Below are positions 4,027 to 38,611 of a DNA stretch of 64,000 bases, in pieces; the first letter of the stretch is position 1, and each line of letters opens with the position of its first letter. The notes under the pieces were generated by a model that saw only the letters and a program-made list of their open reading frames with translations, did no database searches and was not told the DNA's origin. The stretch is from Pseudoalteromonas sp. N1230-9 (GTDB lineage Bacteria; Pseudomonadota; Gammaproteobacteria; Enterobacterales; Alteromonadaceae): assembly GCF_032716425.1 (NCBI RefSeq), contig NZ_CP090420.1, forward strand, positions 496,001 to 560,000, given 5' to 3'. Position numbers and translations under genes: made by a program.

Positions 4027-5007
4027 ATGTCGAAACTGTTTAAGTCACTTTCATGTGCCGTTACATTAGCGTTGGTTGGATGTGGCACAAATGAGGTGTT
4101 TACAGCATCTGCTAGTAGTGAGTTTGCTCATGGTGATGAGCTATTAAGTGCCACAGCGCTAACCGAGGATGCGAGTCACGCGTTAGTGGCAACCCAATCT
4201 GAAGTGTGTGTTTGGGATAATCAGTTAAAAGCACGTTTATACGATTGTATAACAGGGCAGGGCGCTGAGCATGTTGAGCTTGTGGGTTTTAGCGCTAACA
4301 AATCTCGTTTTTTTATTTCAAATCGGTTATCGGTGACTTTATACGATACTCGCACGGGGCGCAGTATCGGCACTTGGCTCACCGGGCAAGAAATTGCTAG
4401 AGACATCGCTATTTCATCCGTGGGCGATACGTTGGTTATTGCCTATCGTAGCGGCAAGGCTGAGGTGATAAACACCCGCACAGGTGATACTAAGCGTTTT
4501 GATATTCATCGTTTAGATATTAATAGCGTGGCGTTATCGGTTGATGGTCAGTGGGCGTTTAGTGGCTCAAGCGACAAGTACGTTAAACTTTGGTCAACGA
4601 GTGATGGTAGCATTCGCTTTGAAGAGCGTTTAGCGACTAGAGTGAATCACGTAACTTTAAATAAATCAGCAAGCTTGGCCTTTGCAATTGATTCGGTTGA
4701 TGATCGTGTATTCTTTGATTTGGCCAATAAAAAAGAGCTATCAGAAGTGGACTCATACTCTAACTTTATTGAGTTCACCGCATCGCAATTTATCAACCAA
4801 GACAAATGGCTATTAACTGGCTCGCCAAAAATGAAGATGCGTTTATACCGTGTTGCAGATGGTGAATTAATCGCTGAATACGAAGCTAAACAGCAGCGTC
4901 AGCGCACGTCAGTACTGAGTGTGGCTTACGATGGTACGCAGTTATATTCACAAACCAGTGACGGTCTATTGCAGGCTTGGCCGTTTGAGATGAAAAGCAA
5001 CAAATAG
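4027..5007 (+). CDS. WD40-repeat lipoprotein
   Basis: A 326-residue protein with a lipoprotein signal (hydrophobic segment ending LVGC, the Cys near residue 19 being the lipidation site). After it come beta-propeller type repeats: blades with WD- or LW-type ends such as VCVWD, VKLWS and LQAWP, and the recurring pattern of Ser/Asp turns (VDGQWAFSGSSDKYVKLWS). It is probably anchored to a membrane facing the periplasm and acts as a protein-binding scaffold; no enzyme motif is visible. The start ATG is preceded by GCGAGTTAGAATA, a weak ribosome site. The gene ends at a bidirectional terminator shared with the convergent aminotransferase gene. Function unknown beyond the fold. Confidence 0.8.
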   Translation: MSKLFKSLSCAVTLALVGCGTNEVFTASASSEFAHGDELLSATALTEDASHALVATQSEVCVWDNQLKARLYDCITGQGAEHVELVGFSANKSRFFISNRLSVTLYDTRTGRSIGTWLTGQEIARDIAISSVGDTLVIAYRSGKAEVINTRTGDTKRFDIHRLDINSVALSVDGQWAFSGSSDKYVKLWSTSDGSIRFEERLATRVNHVTLNKSASLAFAIDSVDDRVFFDLANKKELSEVDSYSNFIEFTASQFINQDKWLLTGSPKMKMRLYRVADGELIAEYEAKQQRQRTSVLSVAYDGTQLYSQTSDGLLQAWPFEMKSNK

Positions 5008-8363: not shown

Positions 8364-10223
8364 TCAGTTTAGGTCATTAATAGTAACGGGCAGTTGCCCT
8401 TTTGCAGGGGCTTTCCCTAGTAAAACGTTTGCCAGCGCTGTAAAAGCAGGACCAGCAATTTTTTCATCAGTGTCAACATCTATATTGTAAGCATAGGTGG
8501 CAAGTACTGCATCGCCAAATTGTCCGAACTGCGCAATATCGTAAGGGGCACGCAAGCTTACAAATACGGTCTTTTTATTGGCTAATTTTGCTTGTTTTAA
8601 TAAGGACTCTAATGCAGCTGATTGATTAGTCTTAGCAATTGCAAATTCTGGGTTATCGGCTAAATCGTCCATACCGCCCACTTCAACAGCGCTTTGTTTT
8701 GGTGACGCATTTGCGGCAATGATGATATCGGCTTCATTAATTTTTTGTAATGTTGCAAGCGGCTCGTAGCCTTGCAAACTCGTGCAGCTAAAGCTGATTA
8801 GCTGATCGGTGTTATCAATTAACGCTTGTTGCAGAGCATAGCATTTGCGGGTATCAGGCATAATAATATGCACTTTGCTGCCCGATTTAATGCTAAGCGG
8901 TAGGGTGTTTTTCTCGTTTTTAATTTCGGTGATAGCCGCTAATGCTAACTCAGCTTCTACTTTCCTGTGACTTTGATCGCCAAGTAAAAGCTGCGCTTTT
9001 TTGATGGCTGCTTCGTCATCAAGTGAAGAGCTGAGTTTAAATTTTTCTTTTAGTTTTAAAATACGTGTTGCAGAAGCGCTCACTTCGTTTGCATTTAACG
9101 TGCCGCGTTGTACTTCTTGCTCTAATCGCTCAATCAGGGCTTCAAGTACAGCTAGGTCTTTAGGGCTTCTGATTTCGATGGGCATAAGGGCAATATCCAC
9201 ACCTGCTGCAAAGGTATTTACTACCGCTTCAATTGGTTCAAAAAAGTGGCTGATCCCCGCCATATCGAGTGCATCTGTGATCACCACACCTTGATAACCG
9301 AGCTCTTCTCGTAATAAGTCGGTGATGATTTTGCGCGACATCGTCGCAGGTTTGATCATGGTTTTGCCTTCTTTACTGACAAATGTACTGTTATCGAGGG
9401 CTGGGTATTGGATATGTGCCGTCATGATCATACCCGGTTGTTGGTTTTTAATAATTTCTTTAAAAGGAGGTAGGTCTTGCTGCCAAATGGTTTCTTTATC
9501 ATGCATTACTTTTGGCAAGCCTGTGTGGCTATCTACATTGGTATCGCCATGCCCTGGAAAGTGCTTTAGCGATGAAATAACGCCGTTGCTTTCGAATCCT
9601 GCCACTTGGGCACCACCTAGTTTTGCAACCAATTGCGGATCTTCACCGTAAGAGCGCACGTTAATAACTGGGTTATCTGGATTCATGTTTACATCGACTG
9701 TGGGTGCATAGTTAACATTCACACCCAGTGCCAATAGCTCGTCGGCAATAATGCGGGCAGACTCAGTCGCGAAGTGGGTGCCATGCTCTTTATAGGTCGC
9801 GCCAATCGACATGTTACCGGTAAACGACGTACCTACATCACGAGGAATACGGGCAACTCGGCCACCCTCTTGGTCTATCGAAATAAACAGCGGTAAGCCT
9901 AACTCTGACTTGGCAGCGGCTTTTTGTAGATCATTATTAAGTTTGATTACTTGCGGCACGGTATCGATATTTTCTGCAAACAAAATCACCCCACCAATGT
10001 TATGTTTAGTGATGATATTCGCTAAATCGGCCGGCAGCTCTGTCACCGGTGTGCGGCATTTTTGCTCACCTGGGTCTTGTTCACAGTAATAGCGCAGGTC
10101 AAGCATGAGCTTTTGCCCTAACTGTTGTTTTAAAGTTAATGCAGACTCAGCAAATGATGATTGTAATGGCATGAAACATCCTAATCCGATAACCAGTGAC
10201 GATAGTGCAAACTTATTTAACAC
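8364..10223 (-). CDS. Secreted GH3-family beta-N-acetylhexosaminidase-like hydrolase
   Basis: A 619-residue glycoside hydrolase family 3 protein, longer than cytoplasmic NagZ (about 340), with a signal peptide ending near QSSFA and a C-terminal extra domain as in Bacillus NagZ. The catalytic loop KHFPGHGDTNVDSHTGLP carries the Asp231-His233 dyad typical of N-acetylglucosaminidases, and TDALDM carries the nucleophile Asp317. It should remove beta-GlcNAc from peptidoglycan fragments, chitin oligomers or similar glycans in the periplasm or outside. I chose the GTG at 10223 because GGAG lies 6 bases upstream; a TTG 12 bases earlier would overlap that site. The DUF1445 gene starts 49 bases after its end, so it may lead the same operon. 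Confidence 0.85.
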   Translation of the reverse strand: MLNKFALSSLVIGLGCFMPLQSSFAESALTLKQQLGQKLMLDLRYYCEQDPGEQKCRTPVTELPADLANIITKHNIGGVILFAENIDTVPQVIKLNNDLQKAAAKSELGLPLFISIDQEGGRVARIPRDVGTSFTGNMSIGATYKEHGTHFATESARIIADELLALGVNVNYAPTVDVNMNPDNPVINVRSYGEDPQLVAKLGGAQVAGFESNGVISSLKHFPGHGDTNVDSHTGLPKVMHDKETIWQQDLPPFKEIIKNQQPGMIMTAHIQYPALDNSTFVSKEGKTMIKPATMSRKIITDLLREELGYQGVVITDALDMAGISHFFEPIEAVVNTFAAGVDIALMPIEIRSPKDLAVLEALIERLEQEVQRGTLNANEVSASATRILKLKEKFKLSSSLDDEAAIKKAQLLLGDQSHRKVEAELALAAITEIKNEKNTLPLSIKSGSKVHIIMPDTRKCYALQQALIDNTDQLISFSCTSLQGYEPLATLQKINEADIIIAANASPKQSAVEVGGMDDLADNPEFAIAKTNQSAALESLLKQAKLANKKTVFVSLRAPYDIAQFGQFGDAVLATYAYNIDVDTDEKIAGPAFTALANVLLGKAPAKGQLPVTINDLN

Positions 10224-26231: not shown

Positions 26232-28391
26232 ATGCGTTTTAAATTTATTGCTGCTGCAGTGGGTATTGCTGTCGCAAATGTTGCCGTTGCCGACGAGGGC
26301 ATGTGGCAACCTCATCAACTGCCAGAACTTGAATCAGTTTTAAAAGCGAAAGGCTTGAGCATTGATGTAGATTCAATTTCAAAACTGACTGAGTTCCCGA
26401 TGAATGCGGTGATCAGTCTTGGCGGTTGTACGGCTTCGTTTGTATCACCAAAAGGCTTAGTTGTAACAAACCATCATTGTGCCTATGGTTCGATTCAATA
26501 TAACTCGACCACCGAAAACAACATTTTAGAAAATGGCTTTTTAGCAAAAAAGCACAATGATGAAGTGCCTGCAGCCCCTGGTTCTCGTGTTTATGTAACC
26601 GAGGAAGTGGTTGAAGTAACTGATAAAGTAAACAAAGGGACTGAACAGTTAACCGGTAAAGCACGTTTTGATGCTATTCAAGCAAATGAAAAAGCACTTG
26701 TTAGTGAGTGTGAACAAGACGAGAGCTATCGCTGTAATGTGTATACTTTCCATGGTGGCCTTGAGTATTACCTAATCAAATCGCTTGAAATTAAAGATGT
26801 ACGTTTAGCGTATGCGCCAGCGATGGGCGTAGGTAAATACGGCGGTGATATCGACAACTGGATGTGGCCGCGTCATACCGGTGATTTTTCGTTCTATCGT
26901 GCGTATGTTGGCAAAGATGGCAAGCCTGCTGAATATTCAGAAGATAACGTGCCGTACCAAAGTGATGCATTTTTAAAAGTGAGTGCTAAAGGCGTACAAG
27001 AAGGTGATTTTGTGATGGTGACCGGATACCCAGGCAGCACAAACCGTTACCGTATTTCGCCAGAAGTTGACTATGTGTTTAATACAGCCTATCCATTAGC
27101 GCGTAAATATAACTCTAAATATGTCTCGTTAATTGAAGAAAATGCCCCGGATGGTTCAGAGGCACGAATCGCTTATGAAAGTACTATTGCGGGTTACAAC
27201 AACTACATTAAAAACTACGGCTCAATGATTGAGAGCTTCAATAAAGGCTCAATGTATAGTCGTAAGCAACAATTCGAAAAAGATCTCACTGCGTGGATCA
27301 ATGAAGATAGTAAACGCAAAGCTAAATACGGACATGTACTTGCTGATTTAACGGCGCTAGTTGCTGAGTCTCAAGAACATAACCAGCGCGACCGTATGTT
27401 AGGTTACGTACACCGTTCACAAATGATGTCATCGGCTCGTATGCTGTATCGTTTAGCATATGAAAAACAAAAGCCAGACGCTGAACGCGAAAGCGGTTAT
27501 CAAGAGCGTGATATGCCACGCATTAAATCACGTTTAGAAAGCATGAGTCGTCGTTATGATGAAACCGTTGATAAAGCTATCTTACTGTACTTTATTGAGC
27601 AATATGCCGCATTACCAAACGATGAGCGCGTTGCAGAAGTCGATAAAGCACTTAGTCTGAGCAATGGCTTTGATAAGCAAAAACAACAAGCTTTACTTGA
27701 TGATATGTATGCTAAATCGGTTCTTGCAGATGAAAGTAAACGTTTGTGGATGGCAGAACTTGACCTTGCTCAGTTAAAGCAAAGTAGCGATCCATTTATT
27801 CAATATGCACATGCTGTTTTTGCCGTTACTAAAGACATGGAAGATGCGAAAAAAGAACTGGCTGGTAAACAGCAAGCTGCTCGCCCTGCATTAATGGAAG
27901 CAATCATTGCTTATAACAAGGCGCTTAATAAGCCTGTTTATGCAGATGCTAACAGCACCCTGCGTGTAACTTACGGTACGGTAGGCGGCTATTCACCGCA
28001 AGATGGCTTAGTGGCAACCCCCTTTACATCCTTAGAAGGACTGCTTGCTAAAAACACCGGTGTTGAACCATTCAACTCGCCAGAGAAACAAAACGAGCTA
28101 ATTAAGCAGAAGCTTTATGGCGATTACACAGGCGGTATGAATACTGTTCCGGTTAACTTTTTATCGAATGTCGATACCACAGGTGGTAACTCTGGCTCAC
28201 CAACGTTAAACGGTAATGCTGAGCTCGTTGGTTTGTTATTTGATGGTGTTTACGAAAGCATTATTGGTGATTGGGATTACGATGAAAACTTAAATCGCTC
28301 AATTCACGTTGATTCACGATACATGTTGTGGGTGATGGATAAAGTTGATAATGCTCAAAACTTACTTGAAGAGATGACTATCGTTAAGTAA
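26232..28391 (+). CDS. S46-family dipeptidyl peptidase, DPP7-type
   Basis: A 719-residue exported serine peptidase that releases dipeptides from N-termini. A signal peptide ends near VAVA. Triad blocks are NHHCAYGSI (His), GGDIDNWMWPRHTGDF (Asp) and GGNSGSP (Ser654). The residue 18 positions after the Ser is Gly672 in LLFDGVY; in characterised S46 enzymes Gly here goes with DPP7 preference for hydrophobic P1 residues, Arg with DPP11 preference for Asp/Glu. The ATG at 26232 is favoured over the one two codons earlier because AAAAGG directly abuts the latter and leaves proper spacing only for the former. A strong terminator follows. It adds to the exported peptide-degrading set of this window. 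Confidence 0.92.
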   Translation: MRFKFIAAAVGIAVANVAVADEGMWQPHQLPELESVLKAKGLSIDVDSISKLTEFPMNAVISLGGCTASFVSPKGLVVTNHHCAYGSIQYNSTTENNILENGFLAKKHNDEVPAAPGSRVYVTEEVVEVTDKVNKGTEQLTGKARFDAIQANEKALVSECEQDESYRCNVYTFHGGLEYYLIKSLEIKDVRLAYAPAMGVGKYGGDIDNWMWPRHTGDFSFYRAYVGKDGKPAEYSEDNVPYQSDAFLKVSAKGVQEGDFVMVTGYPGSTNRYRISPEVDYVFNTAYPLARKYNSKYVSLIEENAPDGSEARIAYESTIAGYNNYIKNYGSMIESFNKGSMYSRKQQFEKDLTAWINEDSKRKAKYGHVLADLTALVAESQEHNQRDRMLGYVHRSQMMSSARMLYRLAYEKQKPDAERESGYQERDMPRIKSRLESMSRRYDETVDKAILLYFIEQYAALPNDERVAEVDKALSLSNGFDKQKQQALLDDMYAKSVLADESKRLWMAELDLAQLKQSSDPFIQYAHAVFAVTKDMEDAKKELAGKQQAARPALMEAIIAYNKALNKPVYADANSTLRVTYGTVGGYSPQDGLVATPFTSLEGLLAKNTGVEPFNSPEKQNELIKQKLYGDYTGGMNTVPVNFLSNVDTTGGNSGSPTLNGNAELVGLLFDGVYESIIGDWDYDENLNRSIHVDSRYMLWVMDKVDNAQNLLEEMTIVK

Positions 28392-28418
28392 TCTAAGTTT
28401 AACATTAATTTAAATATT

Positions 28419-28448
28419 AAAATGCCAGTCTAACGGACTGGCATTTTT
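28419..28448 (+). terminator. Terminator after the S46 peptidase
   Basis: AAATGCCAGTC (28420-28430) pairs with GACTGGCATTT (28436-28446) around a 5-base loop and is followed by more T. It separates the peptidase from the nine-gene operon. Confidence 0.9.
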
Positions 28449-28514
28449 GTTTTTTATAAAAATAAAAACATTAAACTTCATAAGGTTGAAAAATATTTAT
28501 AAAAATTAATTTTT

Positions 28515-28531
28515 CTTAAGTTTTATTTAAG
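28515..28531 (+). promoter_or_regulatory. PmrA/QseB-type direct repeat in front of the nine-gene operon
   Basis: CTTAAG (28515-28520), five bases, then TTTAAG (28526-28531), an 11-base step. This matches the CTTAAG-N5-CTTAAG half-site layout of PmrA/QseB response regulators with one mismatch. It lies 47 bases before the first start codon, and the operon itself encodes a regulator of that family, suggesting self-control. Binding is inferred. Confidence 0.55.
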
Positions 28532-28577
28532 TTTCGCTCGATAAATTTTACACATAACCTAAGTGGAGCGAACAATT

Positions 28578-29219
28578 ATGCTTTCAGTTCAACAATCACA
28601 TCAAACTCAAGTTCAAGAGCCTGCCTTTGTTTGCACGCGTGAAGGAGGTCAATTCCGTGACCGTCTTGAGCGTAATATCAAGCAAGGTTTTGCTGCAGCT
28701 TATGATGCGAAAATTTCGCAGTTCATGCCGCTTCTTTGTGAGCTTAATGTTGATGATGAAGTATGTACGTTAGGTCTTCGCTCTGCATCACAACCTTTGT
28801 TTATTGAACAATACCTCCCTGCGTCTATTGAGCACTTTGTCGGTGCCAAGCGTGAGCACATTTTTGAGCTAGGTAATTTATGCTCAACGCATCGAAAAGC
28901 CACCTTGGCACATTTTGTTTTAATGAACGAAGCACTCTATCAAGCAGGGGCAAAATATTTAGTGTTTTGTGCAACCCGCAAAGTGAGAGCGTTACTAAAA
29001 ATGCTGGGTGTAAATTGCAAAGAAATCGGTGTTGCCAATGCACAAGCACTACAAGATCCAGCAAGCTGGGGTAGCTATTACGACAATCAACCAACCATTT
29101 GTGTGGTTGACCTAAACGAAGCACATCAACGTGTATTAAATACCCCCGTTTTATTCAATATCAAACAGCAGTGTTTACAGTCATCCCTTGAATTGGCTAT
29201 CTATTTGGAGGCGTTATGA
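28578..29219 (+). CDS. Thermostable hemolysin family protein (T_hemolysin, GNAT-like)
   Basis: A 213-residue cytoplasmic protein of the family named after the Vibrio delta-VPH hemolysin. Recognised blocks are RDRLERNIKQGFAAAYDAKI, FMPLLCEL, LGLRSAS, LFIEQYL, and FELGNLCSTHRKATLAHFVL followed by LVFCATRKVRALL. I recall the family as related to GNAT acyltransferases or autoinducer-synthase-like folds rather than pore formers; that is an inference. It has no signal peptide. The ATG at 28578 has GGAG 9 bases before; a GTG five codons earlier is possible. Its stop overlaps the next ATG by 4 bases, so it is tightly coupled with an acyl-activating ligase, which fits a role as acyl acceptor/transferase in small-molecule synthesis. 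Confidence 0.8.
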   Translation: MLSVQQSHQTQVQEPAFVCTREGGQFRDRLERNIKQGFAAAYDAKISQFMPLLCELNVDDEVCTLGLRSASQPLFIEQYLPASIEHFVGAKREHIFELGNLCSTHRKATLAHFVLMNEALYQAGAKYLVFCATRKVRALLKMLGVNCKEIGVANAQALQDPASWGSYYDNQPTICVVDLNEAHQRVLNTPVLFNIKQQCLQSSLELAIYLEAL

Positions 29220-31375
29220 GCTGGTTAACACAGTTACCGCATAAGGATAGCGACACCTTGATGGTTTGCCATCAAAGTGAGGGTGTGCGCTCACTAACTA
29301 AGCAAGAATTTACAGAACAAGTGGCTCGTTTGCTTCCTACCTTAGCTGAATTTGATGCTCAGGGGGTTGCTTACCAATTAGATAACACACCCGCTTGGTG
29401 TGTATTAGAAGCTGCGCTTAGCGAGCTTAAAAGAGTGGCGATTCCACTACCAACGTTTTTTACTGCCCAGCAAATTGCGTTTGGTTTGCAAAACAGTGGG
29501 GCAGGGTTATTTGTATGTGACCGTGCTTACGAAGGTGAGCATGCAAAATTAGTGGCGCTAGTGGATGTATGTAAGCATTACCCTTTATATGTTTATCAAT
29601 TGAGTAATACACAGCCTGTTCCATATTTTGCAAACACGCAAAAGATTACCTTTACGTCGGGCTCAACGGGCACACCAAAAGGCGTGTGTTTATCACTTGA
29701 AAGCCAATTACAGGTGGCAACATCACTTTATCAAAGCATTGGTTTAGAAAAACCAAACCATTTATGTTTACTGCCGCTACCGGTTTTACTTGAGAATTTA
29801 GCGGGTGTGTATGCGCCGCTATTAGCAGGTGGCACAGTTAACTTAGTGCCTTTAGCGGAACTTGGCTTTTCTGGTGCACAGTTACTTGAACCACGCAAAT
29901 TGATAGCAGCCATTGAACGCACTGAGCCAAATACCCTTATTTTAGTGCCTGAGTTACTGACTTGTTTAGTGGCTTTTGCAAAGCAAGGCTGGCAAGCACC
30001 TACAAGCTTAAAGTTTATTGCTGTAGGTGGCGCGGTTGTAAGCCAAGCGCTTATTAAGCAAGCCCGTGAGCTCGGTTTACCTGTTTATCAAGGCTATGGT
30101 TTATCTGAATCTTCATCGGTGGTGAGCCTAAATACACAGACTGATGATGACATTGACACCGCAGGGCGAGTGCTAAAGCACATTCAATACAAAATTGAAA
30201 ATGGCCAGCTTTATATTAAAGGCTCATTGTTTTTGGGGTACTTAGGTCAAGCCGCGCAAAATGCTGACGATTGGTATGCAACCGGCGATCTCGTTACTGA
30301 GCAAGCAGGTCGCTTGATTATACAAGGCCGCTTGAAAAATCAGCTGATCACCAGCTTTGGGCGCAATATCAGCGCCGAGTGGCCTGAGTCGTTATTGCTT
30401 AGCCACAGCCAAGTACAACAAGCGGTGGTGATTGGCGAAGGTCAGGCATTTTTAGCCGCGCTTATCTATGCAAACCAAGCGATGAGTGACGCTGAACTTG
30501 CTACCCATATTACGGCACTAAACGCGCAACTACCCGAATACGCACAGATCAGAAAATGGCATCGAATGGCAGAGCCTATGAGCCACACGCAAGGTTTATT
30601 AACCAGCAATAATCGCCCTAAACGCGATGTTATTAATCAATTTTTTGCTACAGAGATTTCAGCACTTTATCAAGAGGCGACGAGCATGAGTCAATTTTTC
30701 AATACATTACAAGCCGAAACACAGAAAGAACGTGACTACCTTTTAGCTGCGCCGATTATTGGCCGCGTTTTTAAAGGTGAAGTAAGCCTAAGTGAATATG
30801 CATCGTTCTTAACGCAAGCTTATCACCATGTTAAGCATACAGTACCACTGCTGATGGCAGTCGGTGCAAAGCTGAGCGATAAACAAGAGTGGCTGCGCGA
30901 AGCTGTTGCAGAATACATCGAAGAAGAGTTAGGCCACCAAGAATGGGTGCTAAACGATATTGCAGCATGCGGTTTTGATAAAGAGCTAGTACGTCATTCT
31001 CGTCCACAGTTTTCGACCGAATTAATGGTGTCGTACGCCTACGATGCAATTAATCGCGGTAACCCATTGGCATTCTTTGGCATGGTTCATGTGCTTGAAG
31101 GCACTTCGATTGCATTAGCCGATAATGCAGCAGGGCAAATCCGTGAGGTTGTAGGCTTACCTAAAAAGGCGTTTACCTACCTTACTTCGCACGGTGCACT
31201 GGATATTGAACATGTGAAGTTTTTCGAAAATCTTATGAACAAAATTGATAACGAGGACGACCAGCAAGCCATCATTCACGCCGCAAAATGTTTTTATAAA
31301 CTGTACGGCAATATTTTCCGTGACCTCGATTCAGAACCTTTCTTTAGCGAGGCTGACTTGGAGCAAAGCGCATGA
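29216..31375 (+). CDS. AMP-binding ligase fused to a haem-oxygenase-like (TenA/HDO) domain
   Basis: A 719-residue fusion. Residues 1-470 form an ANL acyl-activating enzyme: FTSGSTGTPKGV is the ATP loop, GYGLSES the second motif, WYATGD and GRLKNQLI the hinge. From about 495 to the end is a helical haem-oxygenase-like domain. It carries a plausible complete diiron ligand set: Glu571 and His574 (EELGH), Glu628 (VLEGT) and His659, Asp663, His666 (HGALDIEH). That layout and its spacing resemble diiron oxidases such as CADD and UndA rather than thiaminase TenA. The ligase could activate a fatty or other acid and the fused domain oxidise it. It overlaps both neighbours by 4 bases. Substrate unknown. 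Confidence 0.85.
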   Translation: MSWLTQLPHKDSDTLMVCHQSEGVRSLTKQEFTEQVARLLPTLAEFDAQGVAYQLDNTPAWCVLEAALSELKRVAIPLPTFFTAQQIAFGLQNSGAGLFVCDRAYEGEHAKLVALVDVCKHYPLYVYQLSNTQPVPYFANTQKITFTSGSTGTPKGVCLSLESQLQVATSLYQSIGLEKPNHLCLLPLPVLLENLAGVYAPLLAGGTVNLVPLAELGFSGAQLLEPRKLIAAIERTEPNTLILVPELLTCLVAFAKQGWQAPTSLKFIAVGGAVVSQALIKQARELGLPVYQGYGLSESSSVVSLNTQTDDDIDTAGRVLKHIQYKIENGQLYIKGSLFLGYLGQAAQNADDWYATGDLVTEQAGRLIIQGRLKNQLITSFGRNISAEWPESLLLSHSQVQQAVVIGEGQAFLAALIYANQAMSDAELATHITALNAQLPEYAQIRKWHRMAEPMSHTQGLLTSNNRPKRDVINQFFATEISALYQEATSMSQFFNTLQAETQKERDYLLAAPIIGRVFKGEVSLSEYASFLTQAYHHVKHTVPLLMAVGAKLSDKQEWLREAVAEYIEEELGHQEWVLNDIAACGFDKELVRHSRPQFSTELMVSYAYDAINRGNPLAFFGMVHVLEGTSIALADNAAGQIREVVGLPKKAFTYLTSHGALDIEHVKFFENLMNKIDNEDDQQAIIHAAKCFYKLYGNIFRDLDSEPFFSEADLEQSA

Positions 31376-32148
31376 GTAGCCCAGTTTGTGTGCTAACCGG
31401 TGCAACAGGGGGTATTGGCCGAGCTATTGCCCTTCGCCTTGCAAAAGAAGGTTGGCGTTTATTACTTGTTGGTCGAAATGTGAAGCAACTTGCTGCACTT
31501 AAATTGGAATGTAGCAATGATGCTGAGTATTTTCAGGCTGACCTAAGTAACAGCGAATCTCGCGACGATCTTGCTAAGTTTGCTCAGCAAATTGGCGGGG
31601 CAACGTTACTAATCAATAACGCAGGCGTTAATGTAATGCAGGGGTTTAGTGAAATTAGCGAACAGCAAATTGATCACCTGTTAAATATTAATCTGCATGT
31701 GCCTATTAAATTGTGTCAGCTGTTTTTACCTCAAGTGACCCGCAATAAAGGCACGATTGTCAATATTGGTTCATCGTTTGGCAGCATTGGTTATCCGTAT
31801 CAAACCTTGTACTGCGCAAGCAAGTTTGGCCTAAGAGGGATGACCGAAGCCCTTGCCAGAGAGCTCAGCCACAGCGATGTGAAAGTATTGTATTTAGCGC
31901 CCCGTGCCACCGATACCGCGATTAATTCGCCGCAAGTACGCGCGATGAACAAAGAGCTGGGTAACACCATGGATCCGCCAGAAAAAGTGGCTGATGCATT
32001 AATAGATTTAATTAAATCAAAAAAACGTCGTCGTTTTATTGGTTTTCCAGAAACATTATTTGCCCGTATTAACGGTGCATTTCCATCACTCGTTGATAAC
32101 GCAATAGCAAAACAACTTCCTAAAATTAAAAGTTTTTTTGCCAACTAA
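31372..32148 (+). CDS. Short-chain dehydrogenase/reductase
   Basis: A 258-residue SDR with the NAD(P) loop TGATGGIG near residue 10, NNAG near 80, the catalytic Ser in NIGSSFGS, and the YCASK motif giving Tyr and Lys. GRNVKQ after the second strand, with an Arg, favours NADP. It would reduce or oxidise a carbonyl/hydroxyl group. Its ATG overlaps the stop of the ligase-oxidase gene (ATGA), so it is probably part of the same pathway, perhaps reducing an acyl-derived ketone or aldehyde. A C-terminal stretch after residue 200 (KKRRRFIGFPETLFARING) is basic and amphipathic and may touch the membrane. Specific substrate not known. Confidence 0.9.
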   Translation: MSSPVCVLTGATGGIGRAIALRLAKEGWRLLLVGRNVKQLAALKLECSNDAEYFQADLSNSESRDDLAKFAQQIGGATLLINNAGVNVMQGFSEISEQQIDHLLNINLHVPIKLCQLFLPQVTRNKGTIVNIGSSFGSIGYPYQTLYCASKFGLRGMTEALARELSHSDVKVLYLAPRATDTAINSPQVRAMNKELGNTMDPPEKVADALIDLIKSKKRRRFIGFPETLFARINGAFPSLVDNAIAKQLPKIKSFFAN

Positions 32149-32168
32149 ATTGATTAAGGTGAATGATT

Positions 32169-32816
32169 ATGACTAAACTAAATTTTAAAGCCCTAATGAT
32201 GTTAGGTGTTATCATGGCTGCGCCTGCAAAAGCCGACTTTAATAGCGATTTAAGTTCGGTGCAAAAACAGTGGGCAGTGGTTAATTACGAATTAGTTGAA
32301 GATGCGCAGTTAGATGCACTCGAAAAGTTAGCGAGCGAAACTGCAGAGTTTACCAAAGCCAATGACCAGCAAGCAGCTAGCCATATTTGGTACGGTATTG
32401 TGTTATCGAGCTATGCAGGTGCAAAAGGGGGCTTAGGTGCGCTAGGTCTTGCAAAAGATGCGAAAGCACAATTTGAAAAAGCGCTAAGCCTAGATCCAAA
32501 AGCGCTTGATGGCTCAGCATACACGAGCCTTGCAACCTTATACGGTAAAGTACCAGGTTGGCCAATTGGTTTTGGTGATGACGATGAAGCGAAAAAATTG
32601 TTTAAGCAAGCGCTTGAGCTAAACCCGCGTGGTATCGATAGCAACTATTTATATGCGTCATTTCTGTATGACGAGCGCAAGTATAAATCAGCTAGAGAGT
32701 TTTTATTGGTTGCACAGCAAGCGCCAGCGCGCCCTGATAGACCAAAAGCAGATCTTTACCGCCAACAAGAAATTACTAAACTATTGGCTAAGGTAGAGAA
32801 AAAAATAAAGAGATAA
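32169..32816 (+). CDS. Exported TPR-repeat protein
   Basis: A 215-residue protein with a signal peptide (cut near APAKA) and tetratricopeptide-like helices: AKAQFEKALSLDPKALDGSA and AKKLFKQALELNPRGIDSNY are two clear repeats with the NP/DP turn. It is probably periplasmic and helps assemble or hold partner proteins of the operon; its partner cannot be read from the sequence. Of two in-frame ATGs I take the second (32169), 9 bases after AAGG, since the first is only 3 bases away from it. It lies 20 bases after the SDR gene and 3 before the regulator gene, linking the enzymatic and the regulatory halves of the operon. Confidence 0.8.
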   Translation: MTKLNFKALMMLGVIMAAPAKADFNSDLSSVQKQWAVVNYELVEDAQLDALEKLASETAEFTKANDQQAASHIWYGIVLSSYAGAKGGLGALGLAKDAKAQFEKALSLDPKALDGSAYTSLATLYGKVPGWPIGFGDDDEAKKLFKQALELNPRGIDSNYLYASFLYDERKYKSAREFLLVAQQAPARPDRPKADLYRQQEITKLLAKVEKKIKR

Positions 32817-32819
32817 ACT

Positions 32820-33479
32820 ATGCATTTATTGCTCGTTGAAGACGACCATTTAGTGGCAGAAGGCCTGTGTCGTTCTTTACGTCAACAAGGATACAGTGTA
32901 GAACATAGTTCGACCGTTAAGTCAGCGATGCAATGGCTGCAAAATGATGAAATTGAGCTGGTAGTCCTTGATTTAGGACTACCAGACGGTGATGGCATCG
33001 ACATTTTAAAACACATCAAAAAGCATCGTAAAAATCTGCCCGTGGTGATTTTAACGGCTCGGGGCAGTATTGATGATAAAGTCATGGGGCTAGATTTAGG
33101 TGCTGATGATTACCTAGCAAAGCCTTTTGATCCCGCAGAATTATTTGCCCGTCTTCGGGTTGCCAGCAGGCGTGTGACCCAAGCTCAGACCAGCACTTTA
33201 AAAGTCGGTGATGTTGAAATGGACACCGCCGCTTTTACCGTGAGTTTTCAAGGTGAGCCAGTAAACTTACCACGTAAAGAGTTTATGCTCCTAAAAGCCT
33301 TGCTAGAAAACCAAGGCCGCGTGCAATCAAAACAGCAGTTAGAGAATAAACTGTATGAATGGGGCGAAGAGGTGGGGTCAAATACCATCGAAGTGCACAT
33401 TCATCACTTGCGTAAAAAATTCCCGAAAGAGTTTATTAAAACCTTACGCGGCATTGGTTATGTGGTGGGTAAGCGCTAG
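32820..33479 (+). CDS. OmpR-family response regulator (QseB/PmrA-like)
   Basis: A 219-residue two-domain regulator. The receiver has the acidic pair LLVEDDH, the phosphate acceptor Asp51 in VLDLGLPDGDG, Thr in VILTARG and Lys in LAKPFDP. The C-terminal winged-helix domain (from about 125) has EFMLLKALLENQGRVQSK and the end GIGYVVGKR, as in QseB/PmrA. It is followed by its sensor kinase with a one-base overlap. A CTTAAG-type direct repeat in front of the operon is the kind of site this subfamily binds, suggesting it controls its own operon. PmrAB/QseBC systems respond to iron, acid or catechol-like signals; the signal here is unknown. Confidence 0.93.
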   Translation: MHLLLVEDDHLVAEGLCRSLRQQGYSVEHSSTVKSAMQWLQNDEIELVVLDLGLPDGDGIDILKHIKKHRKNLPVVILTARGSIDDKVMGLDLGADDYLAKPFDPAELFARLRVASRRVTQAQTSTLKVGDVEMDTAAFTVSFQGEPVNLPRKEFMLLKALLENQGRVQSKQQLENKLYEWGEEVGSNTIEVHIHHLRKKFPKEFIKTLRGIGYVVGKR

Positions 33480-34789
33480 TGTCAATTCGTAAAAGGCTGA
33501 CTCTACTTATATTGTCTATGGTGATCTTAACCTGCTTTTTGGCATTTACTAAAGGTTACCGTGAAAGTATGAATCAGGCTGAAGCACTGCTTGATAACGA
33601 GCTGGTAACGCTGGCGCATGTGTTAATCGAACAGCCTCTCAGTAAAGAAGCTCCTGCCTATACGAGTGATCTACCGCAGTTATTATTTCAAGTTTGGGTT
33701 GATGACAGCTTGGCCTCAAGCTCAAAATCATTGCAGCATAACCCTAGCAATCAAAGTCAGTGGCAAACCGGGTTTAGTGTTGAGAACTTGGCAGGGCAAC
33801 GAGTCAAAGTGTATCGCTTAAGCGAAGGTAATAAGCGCGTGCTTATTGCTGAGCCTTTGAGTAAACGTGTAGCACTCACCGAAACCGTGATTTTGTCGGC
33901 CATGACGCCGCTGCTATGGAGTGTGCCTATCCTTGCCCTCCTTATTAGTGTATTTGTAAAACAAGGGCTTGCACCACTAACTCGGTTATCAAATCAGCTT
34001 AAACATCGTCAAGCAAATGACTTTACTGCAATCCCTTGGCAAACCCCAGAGCAAGAAATAAAACCTGTAATTAGTCGCTTAAACGATCTATTCAAACGGG
34101 TTGAAAGTGCTTATTTACGAGAGCGTTTTTTTGCCTCCGATGCGGCCCATGAACTGCGCACGCCGCTGAGTAGTTTAAAAATCAATGTGCATAATTTAGT
34201 GGCTCAAGGTGTTGAGAGTGTTGAGCTTGATGCGATGGAAAAAGGCGTTGATAAACTGAGCAATATCGTTGAACAGATGTTGATTTTGGGTCGTACTTAT
34301 CCAGAGCAATGGCAAGCACAATTTAGCCCTATATCGGTATTAGAAATTAGCCAGCAAGTAGTGGCACAACTTTATGAGCGTATAGATGAAAAAGAGCACA
34401 CCATTAGCATTGATGGCGATGATTTTGTTATTGCAGGTGACGAATTTACCTTAGTTACTTTGTTTGGCAATTTACTAAGTAACGCCATAAAATATACCCC
34501 TGCTGTGGGAGAGATTTGTATTACCTTGAAAGCCGAAAATAATCGTTTTATCTGGCAAGTAGATGACTCAGGCCCTGGTATTGATGAAGCTCAAAAACAG
34601 CGTATTTTTAACCGTTTCTACCGTGTGGGTGGCGATAAACATCCATCAGGTGAGCAAGGAGCTGGGCTGGGTATGGCCATTGTTGAACACATAGTGTCGA
34701 TTTATAACGCTGATATTGCTTTAGCTGACAGTCATCTTGGCGGCTTGCGAGTGAGTGTCTCCTTTATGCAAGGAGAAGTGAGTGAATAA
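33479..34789 (+). CDS. Sensor histidine kinase (QseC/PmrB-like)
   Basis: A 436-residue inner-membrane kinase partnered with the regulator just upstream. Two membrane segments (about 8-26 and 140-160) enclose a periplasmic part of about 115 residues; the phospho-acceptor is His224 in DAAHELRTPLSS. N, G1 and G2 boxes are LLSNAIKYTP, VDDSGPGI and GAGLGMAIVEHI. The periplasmic region has QVWVDD and VLIAEPLSKR, blocks seen in QseC. The start is GTG, overlapping the regulator stop by one base, and the end overlaps the cupredoxin start by 8 bases. It probably senses a metal or redox cue relevant to the downstream cupredoxin and permease, but this is inferred from position. Confidence 0.92.
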   Translation: MSIRKRLTLLILSMVILTCFLAFTKGYRESMNQAEALLDNELVTLAHVLIEQPLSKEAPAYTSDLPQLLFQVWVDDSLASSSKSLQHNPSNQSQWQTGFSVENLAGQRVKVYRLSEGNKRVLIAEPLSKRVALTETVILSAMTPLLWSVPILALLISVFVKQGLAPLTRLSNQLKHRQANDFTAIPWQTPEQEIKPVISRLNDLFKRVESAYLRERFFASDAAHELRTPLSSLKINVHNLVAQGVESVELDAMEKGVDKLSNIVEQMLILGRTYPEQWQAQFSPISVLEISQQVVAQLYERIDEKEHTISIDGDDFVIAGDEFTLVTLFGNLLSNAIKYTPAVGEICITLKAENNRFIWQVDDSGPGIDEAQKQRIFNRFYRVGGDKHPSGEQGAGLGMAIVEHIVSIYNADIALADSHLGGLRVSVSFMQGEVSE

Positions 34790-35129
34790 ATGGATATTGG
34801 CGCTTTCTATGTTGCTACTATGTATGTCGTCTTGGCTTGCTTATGCCAAAGAGTACAAGCTGATTTTAAAAGAGCATTTGTTTTATCCTGCTGAAATTAA
34901 AGTACCTGCCAATAAGAAGTTGCGGCTTTTGATCGAAAACCAAGATGACACCCCAGAAGAATTCGATAGTTTTGACTTAAACCGCGAAAAAGTGCTCTAC
35001 CCAGGTCGCACGAGTGTCATTTATATCGGACCACTCAGCCCTGGGCGTTATGACTTTTTTGGTGAGTTTTCGCCTAATACGGCACGAGGAACTGTTGTGG
35101 CTACACAGGTGAAAGATGCTGATAACTAG
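34782..35129 (+). CDS. Periplasmic cupredoxin-like protein
   Basis: A 115-residue protein with a signal peptide (cut near AYA) and a single small cupredoxin-type beta sandwich: FYPAEIKVPANKKLRLLIEN is the usual first half, PGRTSVIYIGPLSPGRYDFF the loop before the last strand. Classic type-1 copper ligands (His, Cys, His/Met) are not obvious, since it has no Cys in the mature part, so copper binding is doubtful; in FTR1-type systems such domains accompany iron permeases. GTG start overlapping the kinase gene by 8 bases; the permease gene starts inside its end (14-base overlap). Together this points to a metal-handling module at the tail of the operon. Confidence 0.8.
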   Translation: MNKWILALSMLLLCMSSWLAYAKEYKLILKEHLFYPAEIKVPANKKLRLLIENQDDTPEEFDSFDLNREKVLYPGRTSVIYIGPLSPGRYDFFGEFSPNTARGTVVATQVKDADN

Positions 35130-35862
35130 TTTATTAATGACCATTAACCAGCTTCTGCCAGTGGTGATTTTAGCCGTGCTTTTGAGCTTGATTGTGCCTT
35201 TAAGCCAGCGCCAAGTGAGTATTTATGCCGTTATTGGTATCTTGATGAGTTTGGTATTTGTACAAACTGCTGCTTGGCTTAGCCAGTTATTTGACCATCG
35301 AGGCTTAGAGTTCATACAAATGCTGCTGTGTATCATAATTTTTGTCGCTGCATTAATTAGCTGTCAGCAACGAAGCATAGCGGCTGCGCTGGCCTTGATT
35401 GCAACCATGGCTTTGTATTTAAGCCATTACATGATTTATTTAGTCAGTTTTTGGCACAGTAAAGATACCGCTGAGCCATTAATACTGGGTACTTTTCTAG
35501 GTGTTGGAATTTGTATTAGCTTTGGTGTGTTACTGTTCTTTTTGCTTGAAAGTATTACCAAGCGTGCTGGCGTGCAGCCTTTGATTGTGTTGCTAGCCTT
35601 CAATGCAACAGCAAAGTTACTGGTACTTCTTGATTTAGCAAGTCAGGTCGACTTACTTGATGTGACCGCAAATTATTTAGATTGGCGTGGGTTTTTAGTT
35701 GAAAACTCTGAGCTTGGGCGAGTATTAAAAGCCTTAGTGGGCTACGAAGCCACGCCGAGTAAAACCGCGCTGTGGGTGTATGTCGTTGCTACACTCGCAT
35801 TTATCATCATAGTTCGCGTTTTAAAAATTAAAAAGACCAAGGAGCCTGTATGCGGTTCTTAA
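35116..35862 (+). CDS. FTR1-like membrane permease lacking REXXE motifs
   Basis: A 248-residue inner-membrane protein with about seven hydrophobic helices. It aligns by eye with EfeU/FTR1: helix 1 at residues 5-28, GLEFIQMLLCIIIFV in place of the second helix, and near the end LGRVLKALVGYEATPS (Gly209-Ser215), which matches the GYQEAPS region of EfeU. However, both REXXE iron-binding motifs of the family are replaced (around residues 10-15 and 100-108). It may therefore carry something other than ferric iron, or be a non-transporting relative. The cupredoxin gene overlaps its start by 14 bases and the outer-membrane-like gene its end by 13. Family assignment is moderately sure. Confidence 0.6.
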   Translation: MLITSLLMTINQLLPVVILAVLLSLIVPLSQRQVSIYAVIGILMSLVFVQTAAWLSQLFDHRGLEFIQMLLCIIIFVAALISCQQRSIAAALALIATMALYLSHYMIYLVSFWHSKDTAEPLILGTFLGVGICISFGVLLFFLLESITKRAGVQPLIVLLAFNATAKLLVLLDLASQVDLLDVTANYLDWRGFLVENSELGRVLKALVGYEATPSKTALWVYVVATLAFIIIVRVLKIKKTKEPVCGS

Positions 35863-36554
35863 TAGTTAGTTTAAGTTGTTTGCTGTTAGCAAGTATCAGC
35901 CAAGTCGCACATGCAGATGGCATGGTGGTTGATAAAGTTTATCACCCTTATGTGCTTCCCTTTGAGCGTGAAGTTGAGTGGCGTTTAGTGTCTAGGCAAA
36001 CTGATAACGGTAATGTGCTAGCGCAGCGCGCAGGCTTTGGTGGTGCAATTAACGATACTATGAGCTTAGAAGGTTATCTAGTAGGAGAACGCGATGACAA
36101 TGGTGATTTTGGTTTAGCTTCTTACGAGGTTGAGCTTCGTTGGCAGCTAGTTGAGCAAGGCCGTTTATGGGCAGATTGGGGCGCATTATTTGAGCTTGAA
36201 AAACAGCACACTCTAGATGCATATGAAGCGACAAGTGGTTTCTTATGGGAAAAAGAGTTTGGTCGCACGAGTTTAACTCTTAATGCCTTTGTGGTTTATG
36301 AGTGGGGGGCTGATATTGAAAACGAGTGGGAAAGTGAATTTCGTGCCCAGTATCGTTATCGCTATCGCTCTGAGTTTCAACCATCTATTGAAATTTACGC
36401 AGGTGAAGACTTTTTTGGTGTTGGCCCAGGTTTTATAGGTTTGCACCGTTTTAGCCCCAAGCATCAATTAAAATGGGAAGCTGGTTTTATTAGTGAGCTG
36501 AGTCAGTCGGGCAAAGATCATAGCTTTCGTTTGGCGCTAGAGTTTGAGTTTTAA
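35850..36554 (+). CDS. Predicted outer-membrane beta-barrel protein
   Basis: A 234-residue protein with a signal peptide (cut near AHA), alternating hydrophobic/aromatic strands (LEGYLVGER, YEVELRWQLV, LWADWGALFELE, LTLNAFVVYEW) and a C-terminal Phe after RLALEFEF, the usual ending of outer-membrane barrels. About ten strands fit the length. It may form a channel or receptor for the same substrate as the permease, or be an uncharacterised barrel; no close family was recognised. It overlaps the permease gene by 13 bases and is the last gene of the nine-gene run; a 245-base gap follows before the cold-shock gene. Confidence 0.7.
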   Translation: MRFLIVSLSCLLLASISQVAHADGMVVDKVYHPYVLPFEREVEWRLVSRQTDNGNVLAQRAGFGGAINDTMSLEGYLVGERDDNGDFGLASYEVELRWQLVEQGRLWADWGALFELEKQHTLDAYEATSGFLWEKEFGRTSLTLNAFVVYEWGADIENEWESEFRAQYRYRYRSEFQPSIEIYAGEDFFGVGPGFIGLHRFSPKHQLKWEAGFISELSQSGKDHSFRLALEFEF

Positions 36555-36799
36555 TTATTCAAAAGTATCTGCAAGCCCTGTTTATGATGGCCTATGCAGC
36601 GTTCGATAGTGTTTGACTTATTCTAGTAACTCTATATAGTATGGCGCAGCTAGAAAGAAAGCGTGTAATTAAATCTTTATTTCGTTGTTGTATAAGTAAT
36701 ACTTGTAGTACCGTCCTGAAGTTTTTAAGTTCCATCTGATTTTTTGCTATACCCGCCCATTAAGGGCATTGTTTAATTTTTTATATCAGGAATATGACT
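36555..36799 (+). other. Long leader region of the cold-shock gene
   Basis: This 245-base AT-rich gap contains no gene. Cold-shock genes of the CspA type often have long 5' leaders, so part of it (roughly 36690-36799) may be transcribed leader, but no cold-box or defined fold was verified. Confidence 0.3.
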
Positions 36800-37009
36800 A
36801 TGTCTAACGTTGTTTCAGGTACAGTTAAGTGGTTTAACGAATCTAAAGGTTTTGGTTTCATCGAGCAAGAAAATGGCCCAGACGTGTTTGCACACTTCAG
36901 CGCTATCAAAAGCGAAGGTTTCAAAACTTTAGCTGAAGGCCAACGTGTAGAGTTCACTCTTTCACAAGGTCAAAAAGGCCCTCAAGCGGATAACATCACT
37001 CCGTTATAA
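36800..37009 (+). CDS. Cold-shock protein, CspA family
   Basis: A 69-residue OB-fold nucleic-acid chaperone. RNP1 is KGFGFIEQ and RNP2 is VFAHFSAI, both complete; the end QADNITPL is typical. It should bind single-stranded RNA/DNA and melt secondary structures at low temperature or in stationary phase. The ATG at 36800 has AGGA 8 bases before it, better than the ATG two codons earlier, which is only 2 bases away. It is monocistronic with a terminator hairpin downstream. Confidence 0.95.
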
Positions 37010-37036
37010 TTTTTACTTTTAGTAAAAATTAAGAAG

Positions 37037-37061
37037 AAGCAAGCTACGGCTTGCTTTTTTT
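37037..37061 (+). terminator. Terminator of the cold-shock gene
   Basis: AAGCAAGC (37037-37044) pairs with GCTTGCTT (37049-37056) around TACG and runs into T7. A weaker AT hairpin lies just before it. Confidence 0.85.
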
Positions 37062-37118
37062 ATGCCTAAAAATTGACTGGTAGCATGAACATTTCTATAG
37101 TTAATTCAGTCGTCGTAT

Positions 37119-37883
37119 TTGAGTATTTTAGCCATTTTTAGATATCTTGTATTAGCGTGTTTGTACATTACACCTGTTGTGTACGCCAAGCACAGTGTGA
37201 CCATCTATACCGAGCAGTTTCCCCCTTATAACTTCTCTAATAAAGGCTACTTGGAAGGAATTAACCTTCGATTTGTAAGAGCAATGTGTGTGGATGCAGA
37301 TATTGAATGTCGATTCGTCTTATTACCGTGGTCTAGAGCATATCACTTAGCGCAAGAGGAGCCGATGGCAGGGTTGGTGTCTACAGCACGTATCCCAGAT
37401 AGAGAGCCTTTATTTAATTGGGTTGGACCTATGGCTTCATCCCGTAATTATTTTTACCGCTTAAAATCGAATCCCCAAGTTAATCCGCGAGATTTATCTG
37501 AGGTGAAAGATTACACTCTAGGTGTGGTTAGAGACAGTATTTATGAGCAGTTTGTAGAAAATATTGGTTTTGAAAATGAGCAGAATTTACTTAAATTTAG
37601 CCATTATTATGAATGCATTAACTTATTCTTTAAGGGAAAGCTCGACCTTATTATCGGCTCAGAATTATCCTTCCATTATCAACTCATGCAATACGGTTAT
37701 GCGGGTCAAGAAGTTGTAAAGTTAATAGAACTCCCCCTTAACGATACGACGGGTAACTTTTTAGCGTTGAATAAAAATATGCCTAAAGAGATTGTTGAGC
37801 AATTTCAAAACAGCTATCAAAAGCTAATGAAACAAGGTAAGTTAGACAAGTTAATAAATGAGTACTTGGTCAGTCAGCACTAA
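37119..37883 (+). CDS. Family-3 solute-binding-like periplasmic protein
   Basis: A protein of about 254 residues with a signal peptide (cut near VYA) and an SBP_bac_3 domain: VTIYTEQFPPYNF at the start, LPWSRAYHLA, PDREPLFNWVGP and ALNKNMP near the end. Members bind amino acids or similar ligands, or act as sensors. No ABC transporter permease is near, so a sensing or orphan role is likely. No in-frame ATG was found before the signal peptide, so I use a TTG at 37119; the ribosome site is weak and the start uncertain. It overlaps the next, convergent gene by 4 bases, and that gene encodes a paralogue. Confidence 0.75.
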   Translation: MSILAIFRYLVLACLYITPVVYAKHSVTIYTEQFPPYNFSNKGYLEGINLRFVRAMCVDADIECRFVLLPWSRAYHLAQEEPMAGLVSTARIPDREPLFNWVGPMASSRNYFYRLKSNPQVNPRDLSEVKDYTLGVVRDSIYEQFVENIGFENEQNLLKFSHYYECINLFFKGKLDLIIGSELSFHYQLMQYGYAGQEVVKLIELPLNDTTGNFLALNKNMPKEIVEQFQNSYQKLMKQGKLDKLINEYLVSQH

Positions 37884-38611
37884 TTATATTCAGTTTGCAT
37901 CATCACTTTTCGATAAGTCTGGCTCTTTGCTACATCTAAAAAAGCGTCTTTCAGTGCTTTAATGTAATTTGGATCTGTATTCTTATTTGCTGCAAGGTAG
38001 CCATTCATAACTAAGAAGTCGATAGTATGAGCAAAGGTGAAGTTGTGTTCGTCTTGTGCTAATTGGTCTGCCATTGCCGCTATGTAGTTTTTATCATCGA
38101 CAATAAGGTCTACTTTGCCTGATATGAGCAATTGATAAGAGCGGGTTATATCTGAAGTGTATATCAGGGTATAGCCTCGTTCAGAAAGCTGCTTTGCTGA
38201 AAGGTCATCACGTTGAACTGCAACTTTATACTGCTTAGCTTGTTCGCTTGCTGTTATATTAATATCAGCGCGTTGTGTAAGCTTTACAAAGCCCATGCGG
38301 TAAGTCGCTACTGCTCCAATCCATTCGAATTTACTTTCTCGTTCAGGTGTTTTTGCCATGCTATAAATAAGCGTATTTGGCTTTTTTAGTGCCATGCTAT
38401 AAGCGCGTGCCCACGGATACAGTTCAATGTTGGCTGTTAAATTAGCTTTGGCAAATATAGCCTTAACAAGCTGTGTACTGTCGCCTGCAACTTGGTTGTT
38501 AATTAGCGTTTGGTTGGGAGGAGAAAGTTCGGTCACGACTGTTAATGTCGGTTCACTATGAGCAGGCCAACTTATACATAATAAGGCGAATAAAAATAGA
38601 GAATATTTCAT
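37880..38611 (-). CDS. Second family-3 solute-binding-like periplasmic protein
   Basis: A 243-residue exported protein (signal peptide cut near AHS) of the same family as its convergent neighbour: it shares PWARAYSMA, PERESKFEWIG and the ending ALKDAF, with a similar length, but overall identity looks low. Like its partner it lacks transporter genes nearby. The two genes overlap tail to tail by 4 bases. This gene has its own promoter region on the side of the nucleoside transporter, from which it is separated by a terminator. Ligand unknown. Confidence 0.78.
   Translation of the reverse strand: MKYSLFLFALLCISWPAHSEPTLTVVTELSPPNQTLINNQVAGDSTQLVKAIFAKANLTANIELYPWARAYSMALKKPNTLIYSMAKTPERESKFEWIGAVATYRMGFVKLTQRADINITASEQAKQYKVAVQRDDLSAKQLSERGYTLIYTSDITRSYQLLISGKVDLIVDDKNYIAAMADQLAQDEHNFTFAHTIDFLVMNGYLAANKNTDPNYIKALKDAFLDVAKSQTYRKVMMQTEYN

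Follow-up and report, generated by a model that had tools for sequence, protein, structure and literature searches.

A "thermostable hemolysin" operon of Pseudoalteromonas as a candidate self-activating pathway to an oxidised N-acyl product

Introduction

The nine-gene operon analysed here lies in a 64,000-nucleotide stretch of Pseudoalteromonas sp. N1230-9 (GCF_032716425.1, contig NZ_CP090420.1, positions 496,001 to 560,000; hereafter the window), and its closest described relatives are clusters containing a gene for a "thermostable hemolysin" (T_hemolysin). In P. carrageenovora 9T, the plasmid genes PCAR9_p0005-p0014 were presented, with citation of hemolysin work, as a potential virulence cluster with an iron-activated QseBC system, and the cluster was reported to be conserved in 24 Pseudoalteromonas genomes (PMC6262041). 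The gene kinds match those of the window, and the plasmid of strain KCTC 22325 has them in the same order, with the acyl ligase and the heme-oxygenase-like diiron oxidase (HDO) as two genes. The gene cluster itself is already published; unlike the present analysis, the section describing it contains neither an enzyme fold nor a promoter grammar.

In Vibrio cholerae, according to the literature, the dth region likewise has a delta-thermostable hemolysin adjoining an acyl ligase; DthC is VCA1110 (PMC12208996, citing Fallarino 2002), which is listed elsewhere as a ligase (PMC3652848). Vibrio sp. HDW18 has the same core, from T_hemolysin to the TPR protein, followed by a two-component pair, in the order seen in the window, but no cupredoxin, FTR1-like or g9 gene is annotated behind them in the stretch read. 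Going by its number alone, we place the V. cholerae regulator VCA1105 in the dth region as well. This regulator was reported as changed in animal models (PMC4441509). In P. alcaligenes AVO110, five such genes, by description a ligase, an HDO-type protein, a short-chain dehydrogenase (SDR), a TPR protein and a response regulator (RS08440-RS08460), were co-induced 38- to 389-fold after cells had been shifted out of LB into fungal exudate medium (PMC8304167, Table 4). The change of medium could be a partial cause of this induction. The genes were reported to be required for growth on the exudate medium, which the authors read as fatty-acid beta-oxidation (PMC8304167), and a thermostable hemolysin cluster has also been reported in Methylophilaceae (PMC10872708).

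We propose, with a probability of about 0.6, that the nine genes form a biosynthetic operon of the dth type, which activates itself and makes an oxidised N-acyl product under the control of its own sensor. This reading is based on synteny, domain assignment, modelled folds, ligand-type residues of the HDO and promoter grammar. New here are a single promoter grammar, in which the box CTTAAG-N5-YTTAAG is followed after exactly 10 bp by a -10 element (115 of 116 distinct box-bearing promoters), and the modelling of "thermostable hemolysin" as an acyltransferase with a fold nearest to those of N-acyl-homoserine lactone (AHL) synthases; neither the promoter grammar of the cluster nor an acyltransferase role of T_hemolysin was found in the literature, among the matches listed.

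Results

One operon, one promoter grammar

Nine open frames, all on the plus strand, occupy 28563–36554 (Table 1), and no junction exceeds 14 bases, be it an overlap or a gap. Counting stop codons, g1/g2 and g2/g3 overlap by 4 bases, g5/g6 by 1, g6/g7 by 8, g7/g8 by 14 and g8/g9 by 13, while gaps of 14 and 3 bases part g3/g4 and g4/g5. The initial annotation, made from the sequence alone, had described nine same-strand genes with gaps of at most 20 bases, and this was borne out, the gaps being at most 14 bases. Seven of its nine gene labels were confirmed by Pfam; g8 is FTR1-like through its relatives only, and g9 matched no Pfam model. Position 28515, given as the start of the region, opens a regulator box and not a gene; the likely true start of g1 is the ATG at 28578, preceded by a Shine-Dalgarno-like GGAG.

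Table 1. Coordinates of the operon and of its control elements in the window
Feature	Position	Strand	Basis or remark
Terminator-like hairpin	28419..28447	+	3' of the upstream gene; operon boundary
Regulator box CTTAAG-TTTTA-TTTAAG	28515..28531	+	PmrA/QseB-type direct repeat
-10 element TAAATT	28542..28547	+	10 bp behind the box
g1, T_hemolysin (PF12261)	28563..29219	+	Pfam match; predicted N-acyltransferase, AHL-synthase/FeeM-like fold
g2, ANL acyl ligase fused to HDO	29216..31375	+	HDO part from ~30686
g3, SDR	31372..32148	+	adh_short; NF006565 above cut-off
g4, TPR protein, hydrophobic N-terminus	32163..32816	+	TPR; possibly TPAT/BstC/TatT-like fold (modelled)
g5, OmpR-type response regulator	32820..33479	+	Response_reg and Trans_reg_C; nearest PmrA/QseB
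g6, sensor histidine kinase	33479..34789	+	HisKA and HATPase_c; nearest QseC/PmrB
g7, cupredoxin-like protein	34782..35129	+	Cupredoxin_1 (PF13473), 6.9e-28
g8, divergent FTR1-superfamily membrane protein	35116..35862	+	REXXE motifs absent
g9, conserved protein, signal-like N-terminus	35850..36554	+	"barrel" is the label of the initial annotation

The pattern YTTAAGN5YTTAAG has one exact match in the window, at the box listed in Table 1, which is of the published PmrA type, CTTAAG-N5-XTTAAT (PMC3973317). Its conservation was followed in a pooled set of 159 loci having T_hemolysin or HDO, from which 7 duplicates were removed. Upstream of T_hemolysin, the TTAAG direct repeat was found without mismatch in 91 of the 152 distinct loci and with one mismatch in a further 43 (0.5 and 12.6 in shuffles), the two halves being spaced by 11 bases in 118 of these 134. 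A position weight matrix trained on the other loci placed the box of the held-out locus above the 99th shuffle percentile for 110 of the 113 distinct loci that have the regulator-kinase pair, at a median position of -61; the 113 remained of 119 after loci sharing their last 150 upstream bases had been dropped, and as the set still holds close relatives they are not independent events. The same was true of 22 of the 28 loci with no pair in the stretch read. Both backgrounds were single-base shuffles.

The distance to the -10 element is fixed. When 147 loci were entered and the 116 distinct promoters above the box threshold were compared, an A at offset 28 and a T at offset 32 were each present in 115. 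Where regulator, kinase and the genes behind them form a separate unit, this unit has a box of its own in 12 of 16 cases, followed in all 12 by the -10 element at the identical distance, and in most split loci both units show the same grammar. Internal promoters parting the enzyme half from the regulatory half would have spoken against the single unit that the initial annotation had proposed; only one perfect box was found inside 110 contiguous operons, a count that does not include weaker boxes or other promoter types.

The genome consists of two contigs (4.63 Mb in total), and the replicon that carries the window measures 0.90 Mb. In the whole genome, the strict box occurs at five places, compared to two for a reversed control (11 and 4 sites for a looser pattern). 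Only two of the five also have the -10 element: one belongs to this operon, the other to a second QseBC-like pair, which lies on the large replicon. In this restriction the pair of the operon differs from PmrAB and QseBC. Since the grammar is shared, also by the separate regulator-tail units, a single auto-activated regulon of enzyme core, pair and tail is supported at the level of sequence, and we infer that the box is bound by g5.

At the second QseBC-like pair, the same box and -10 spacing stand 5' of the regulator gene (G000:C1:2355502-2355534; L198, L258); cross-talk between the two pairs is therefore possible. Generic predictions over 28000-37500, on both strands, gave no excess of promoter-like sites (14, compared to 18.8 in shuffles) or of terminator-like sites (8, compared to 10.3), and no terminator was found directly 3' of g9.

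The predicted acyltransferase and its partner enzymes

The match of g1 to PF12261 (1.5e-39; 136 bits against a cut-off of 27) was its only Pfam match at E<=0.01; PF00765, the family of LuxI-type AHL synthases, was matched neither by g1 nor by any protein of the genome. The structure model of g1 has the LuxI-type AHL synthase fold, and the closest folds to it are those of AHL synthases, including the CoA-dependent RpaI, BjaI and MesI, and of the N-acyl amino acid synthase FeeM. In sequence the kinship is faint: a weak hhalign match aligned E97 of g1 with the LuxI Glu, the LuxI S-R corresponds to G-N, and the conserved LuxI E-x-S-R and its neighbouring residues are not kept; a sequence search against solved structures returned nothing but histone H5, with E values no better than 0.19. 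Unlike the AHL synthases, g1 is linked to a two-component pair and not to LuxR. Judging by the model, this protein, long annotated as a hemolysin toxin, looks like a bearer of the enzyme fold of quorum-sensing signal makers and is probably an acyltransferase, the acyl-transferring enzyme of the pathway, a probable role which the initial annotation had missed.

In g2, AMP-binding (9.2e-38) and Haem_oxygenas_2 (PF14518, 4.9e-34) were matched in a single frame. Such a fusion of ligase and HDO is found in 20 of the 144 distinct loci having both, the window among them, the two being separate frames elsewhere. The ligase has the ANL core motifs, and the position of the A10 lysine is R in 127 and K in 26 of 154 sequences. 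The HDO part matched structure 3dde at 1e-20. Its H57, E89, E90, H93, E147, H178, D182 and H185 (alignment numbering) were invariant in 16 sequences, and among these we take the iron ligands to lie. Because these ligand-type residues are invariant, the iron requirement that had been proposed for the enzyme is likely. The modelled fold of g4 may resemble those of lipid-binding T components (TatT/TPAT/BstC), a likeness that is also new here.

Conservation and modularity of the cluster

Of 60 genomes of the genus, 39 have T_hemolysin, 36 the FTR1-like gene and 35 the HDO, and all 36 FTR1-like genomes had T_hemolysin at the same locus; the naive hypergeometric chance of this co-occurrence, which ignores kinship, is 2.5e-13. 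Besides the window, all genes were in order in 34 of 35 same-genus loci, the remaining one (L061) lacking HDO and SDR. In the order as a whole, T_hemolysin was present in 56 of 295 genomes. Outside the genus, where 40 of 55 T_hemolysin matches were fetched, a five-gene core of T_hemolysin, ligase, HDO, SDR and TPR protein was in order in 37 of the 40 loci, often with the pair added and in part with the tail. A scan of genome contigs with the HDO alignment returned at least 579 stretches with relatives, the best 80 of which all stood among cluster genes. The genera carrying the cluster include Polynucleobacter, Hydrogenophaga, Rheinheimera and Alteromonas.

The 152 distinct loci fall into several classes. 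All nine genes were in order in 67, including one (L158) with 3,008 bases between core and regulator. Core and pair without the full tail were found in 35, a class that includes two loci with a partial tail (L130, L185) and one whose contig ends at the kinase (L176); the other 32 show no tail gene in at least 2.5 kb read behind the kinase. Another 28 have only the core in the stretch read, counting three whose block with tail genes is cut by the stretch end (L077, L080, L106) and three in which a regulator is present (L107, L139, L173). In nine loci the regulator-kinase-tail block lies upstream of the core, and 13 are partial. Eighteen genomes whose locus lacks the tail were picked by hand for a search elsewhere: g9 was found in 5 of the 12 with a five-gene core, always within a regulator-kinase-cupredoxin-FTR1-g9 block, and in none of the 6 with the pair. 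The operon is conserved, modular and, judging by its promoter, auto-regulated. The synteny, the occurrence of the genes together in other genomes and the promoter grammar agree with the claim of the initial annotation that an oxidative acyl pathway and its own QseBC/PmrAB-like system form one co-regulated unit.

T_hemolysin was also found without the full cluster: alone in L075 and L076, where 15.5 kb showed no further gene of the cluster, in L095 and L096 with a ligase, and in L108 adjoining a 165-residue FTR1-like frame. Several loci departed from the common layout. One of the same genus (L074) is rearranged or decayed: kinase, regulator and SDR lie on the strand opposite to the T_hemolysin and TPR genes, and no ligase or HDO was found; one in Alteromonadaceae (L172) has a second HDO gene 180 bases after the TPR gene; in L221 a second, diverged TPR gene (4039-4680) stands between box and regulator of a separate regulator-tail unit; and on a plasmid of Pantoea deleyi (L251) a VIT family gene (9212-9895) follows the five-gene core. 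In a plasmid collection, 29 records encode an HDO relative, many of them large secondary replicons (e.g., NZ_CP027525.1, NZ_CP085859.1 and NZ_CP071407.1), and the cluster may therefore move between replicons; the weakest of these relatives, below 30% identity, may be other HDOs.

Discussion

Proposed pathway and its narrower versions

In the pathway that we propose, the substrate activated by the ANL ligase would be a carboxylic acid and probably a fatty acid; the HDO would oxidise either this substrate or the amine with which it is paired, the redox state being adjusted by the SDR. The "thermostable hemolysin" would then join the acyl group to the amine, and the TPR protein may handle the hydrophobic product in the periplasm; this product is probably an acylated small molecule or lipid. 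The QseC/PmrB-like kinase would sense the product, or the state of the envelope to which the product answers, and the regulator would activate the single promoter through the PmrA-type box, whose spacing to the -10 element is constant; in this way the pathway would turn on its own sensor. The three tail proteins (cupredoxin, FTR1-like and g9) would be accessories travelling with the sensor pair. The chemistry, the product, the sensed cue and the binding of the box by g5 are, in this scheme, what we infer.

Two narrower versions of this reading, which the data do not separate, differ in what the sensor detects. According to the first, which is possible although we lean against it, the PmrAB-like sensor would respond to membrane-active compounds, and the envelope would be protected by a modified membrane lipid or amide that the operon makes. 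The families nearest to g5 and g6 are PmrA/QseB and QseC/PmrB, the box is of the PmrA type, the TPR protein may, by its model, be like a lipid carrier, and the P. alcaligenes genes were strongly induced on fungal exudate medium. However, g5 scored below the NCBIfam equivalog cut-offs for PmrA (228.6 against 330 bits) and QseB (206.3 against 345 bits), g6 scored under those for QseC and PmrB, and conservation is poor in the part of the kinase that serves as sensor.

The second version, likewise tentative and somewhat improbable, is a quorum-type circuit, in which the oxidised N-acyl product of g1-g3 would be a diffusible signal, with g6 as its receptor and g5 closing a positive feedback loop. 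The logic resembles that of LuxM/LuxN, with other proteins. It is favoured by the modelled fold of g1, with the CoA-dependent synthases among its nearest, by the ligase adjoining it, by the presence of a sensor within an operon of auto-activating promoter grammar, and by the confinement of the strict grammar, in its own genome, to this operon and one paralogous pair. Feedback alone, however, fits any inducible pathway, and the induction in P. alcaligenes came with fungal exudate. Moreover, g9 was not found anywhere in 7 of the 12 five-gene-core genomes searched, so that the core may run without the sensor-tail block (the search was for g9 alone).

A broader claim, which we regard as doubtful, is that "thermostable hemolysin" clusters form a class of cell-cell or envelope signalling circuit that is widespread among Gamma- and Betaproteobacteria and has gone unrecognised: an enzyme of AHL-synthase fold would, with ligase and diiron oxidase, make an oxidised N-acyl mediator, a QseC-like kinase would sense it, the PmrA-type promoter would give positive feedback, and the hemolysis obtained from cloned genes would be due to a heat-stable lipid product and not to a protein toxin. 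If the enzyme reading of g1 is true, a common cluster may have been misread as a virulence factor, and the labels on many environmental genomes could be corrected; together with the sharp promoter rule, it would offer a clear route to the metabolite.

The tail genes and metal import

The initial annotation had joined the iron-dependent pathway to a metal sensor and a metal importer of its own. Besides the HDO residues, this is favoured by the FTR1-superfamily kinship of g8 and by the VIT family gene of the Pantoea plasmid. The gene pair g7-g8 has its counterpart in FTR1 permeases with a cupredoxin. The kinship of g8 was seen through relatives only: g8 itself did not match PF03239 or any other Pfam model, nor any solved structure in a sequence search, whereas 14 of 31 relatives match PF03239 (60 bits in L208). 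Unlike in FTR1 permeases, the two REXXE motifs are absent from g8, which has NQLLP and LYLSH instead, and both are kept in only 10 of 91 family members. In the cupredoxin, E59, E60, N67, R68 and E69 are kept in 90 of 90 members, but in the C-terminal loop the window has S97 where 18 of the 90 have a His, presumably a metal ligand. The two losses do not go together: REXXE was found in none of the 18 loci with the cupredoxin His, compared to 15 of 71 others (Fisher 0.035, kinship ignored), which is the opposite of joint loss.

As g8 has lost REXXE and a Ser replaces the cupredoxin His, iron import in this lineage is doubtful, and 32 loci with core and pair show no tail gene in the 2.5 kb or more read behind the kinase. 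Metal import was dropped as the heart of the system after the motif checks, and the iron pathway as first proposed appears quite unlikely. A role of the tail beside the sensor fits better, because the tail, where it is seen, sits behind the regulator-kinase pair.

Readings as a toxin or as beta-oxidation

The published description as a virulence or hemolysin toxin cluster, with the hemolysin work it cites, is very improbable in view of the modelled enzyme fold of g1 and of the spread of the cluster through Polynucleobacter, Hydrogenophaga, Rheinheimera and Alteromonas. By its title only, the 2002 study of Fallarino reportedly saw no direct contribution to virulence. Fatty-acid beta-oxidation, as read in P. 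alcaligenes, would account for ligase, SDR and the reported growth requirement on exudate medium, and is equally improbable: acyl-CoA dehydrogenase, enoyl-CoA hydratase and thiolase are encoded by none of the nine genes, and none of them is annotated in the stretches from KCTC 22325, Vibrio sp. HDW18 and the Pantoea deleyi plasmid.

Other observations in the window

A phage-defence reading was discarded, as PADLOC gave no match for the seven proteins searched, g1-g4 and g7-g9. An RNA element within the operon was likewise rejected; the sole Rfam match in the window at gathering score, a cspA thermoregulator RNA (91.5 bits, 36688-37063), lies immediately 3' of the operon. It is followed by two convergent genes, 37119-37883 (+) and 37880-38611 (-), which overlap by 4 bases and, by eye only, appear to encode periplasmic solute-binding-like proteins.

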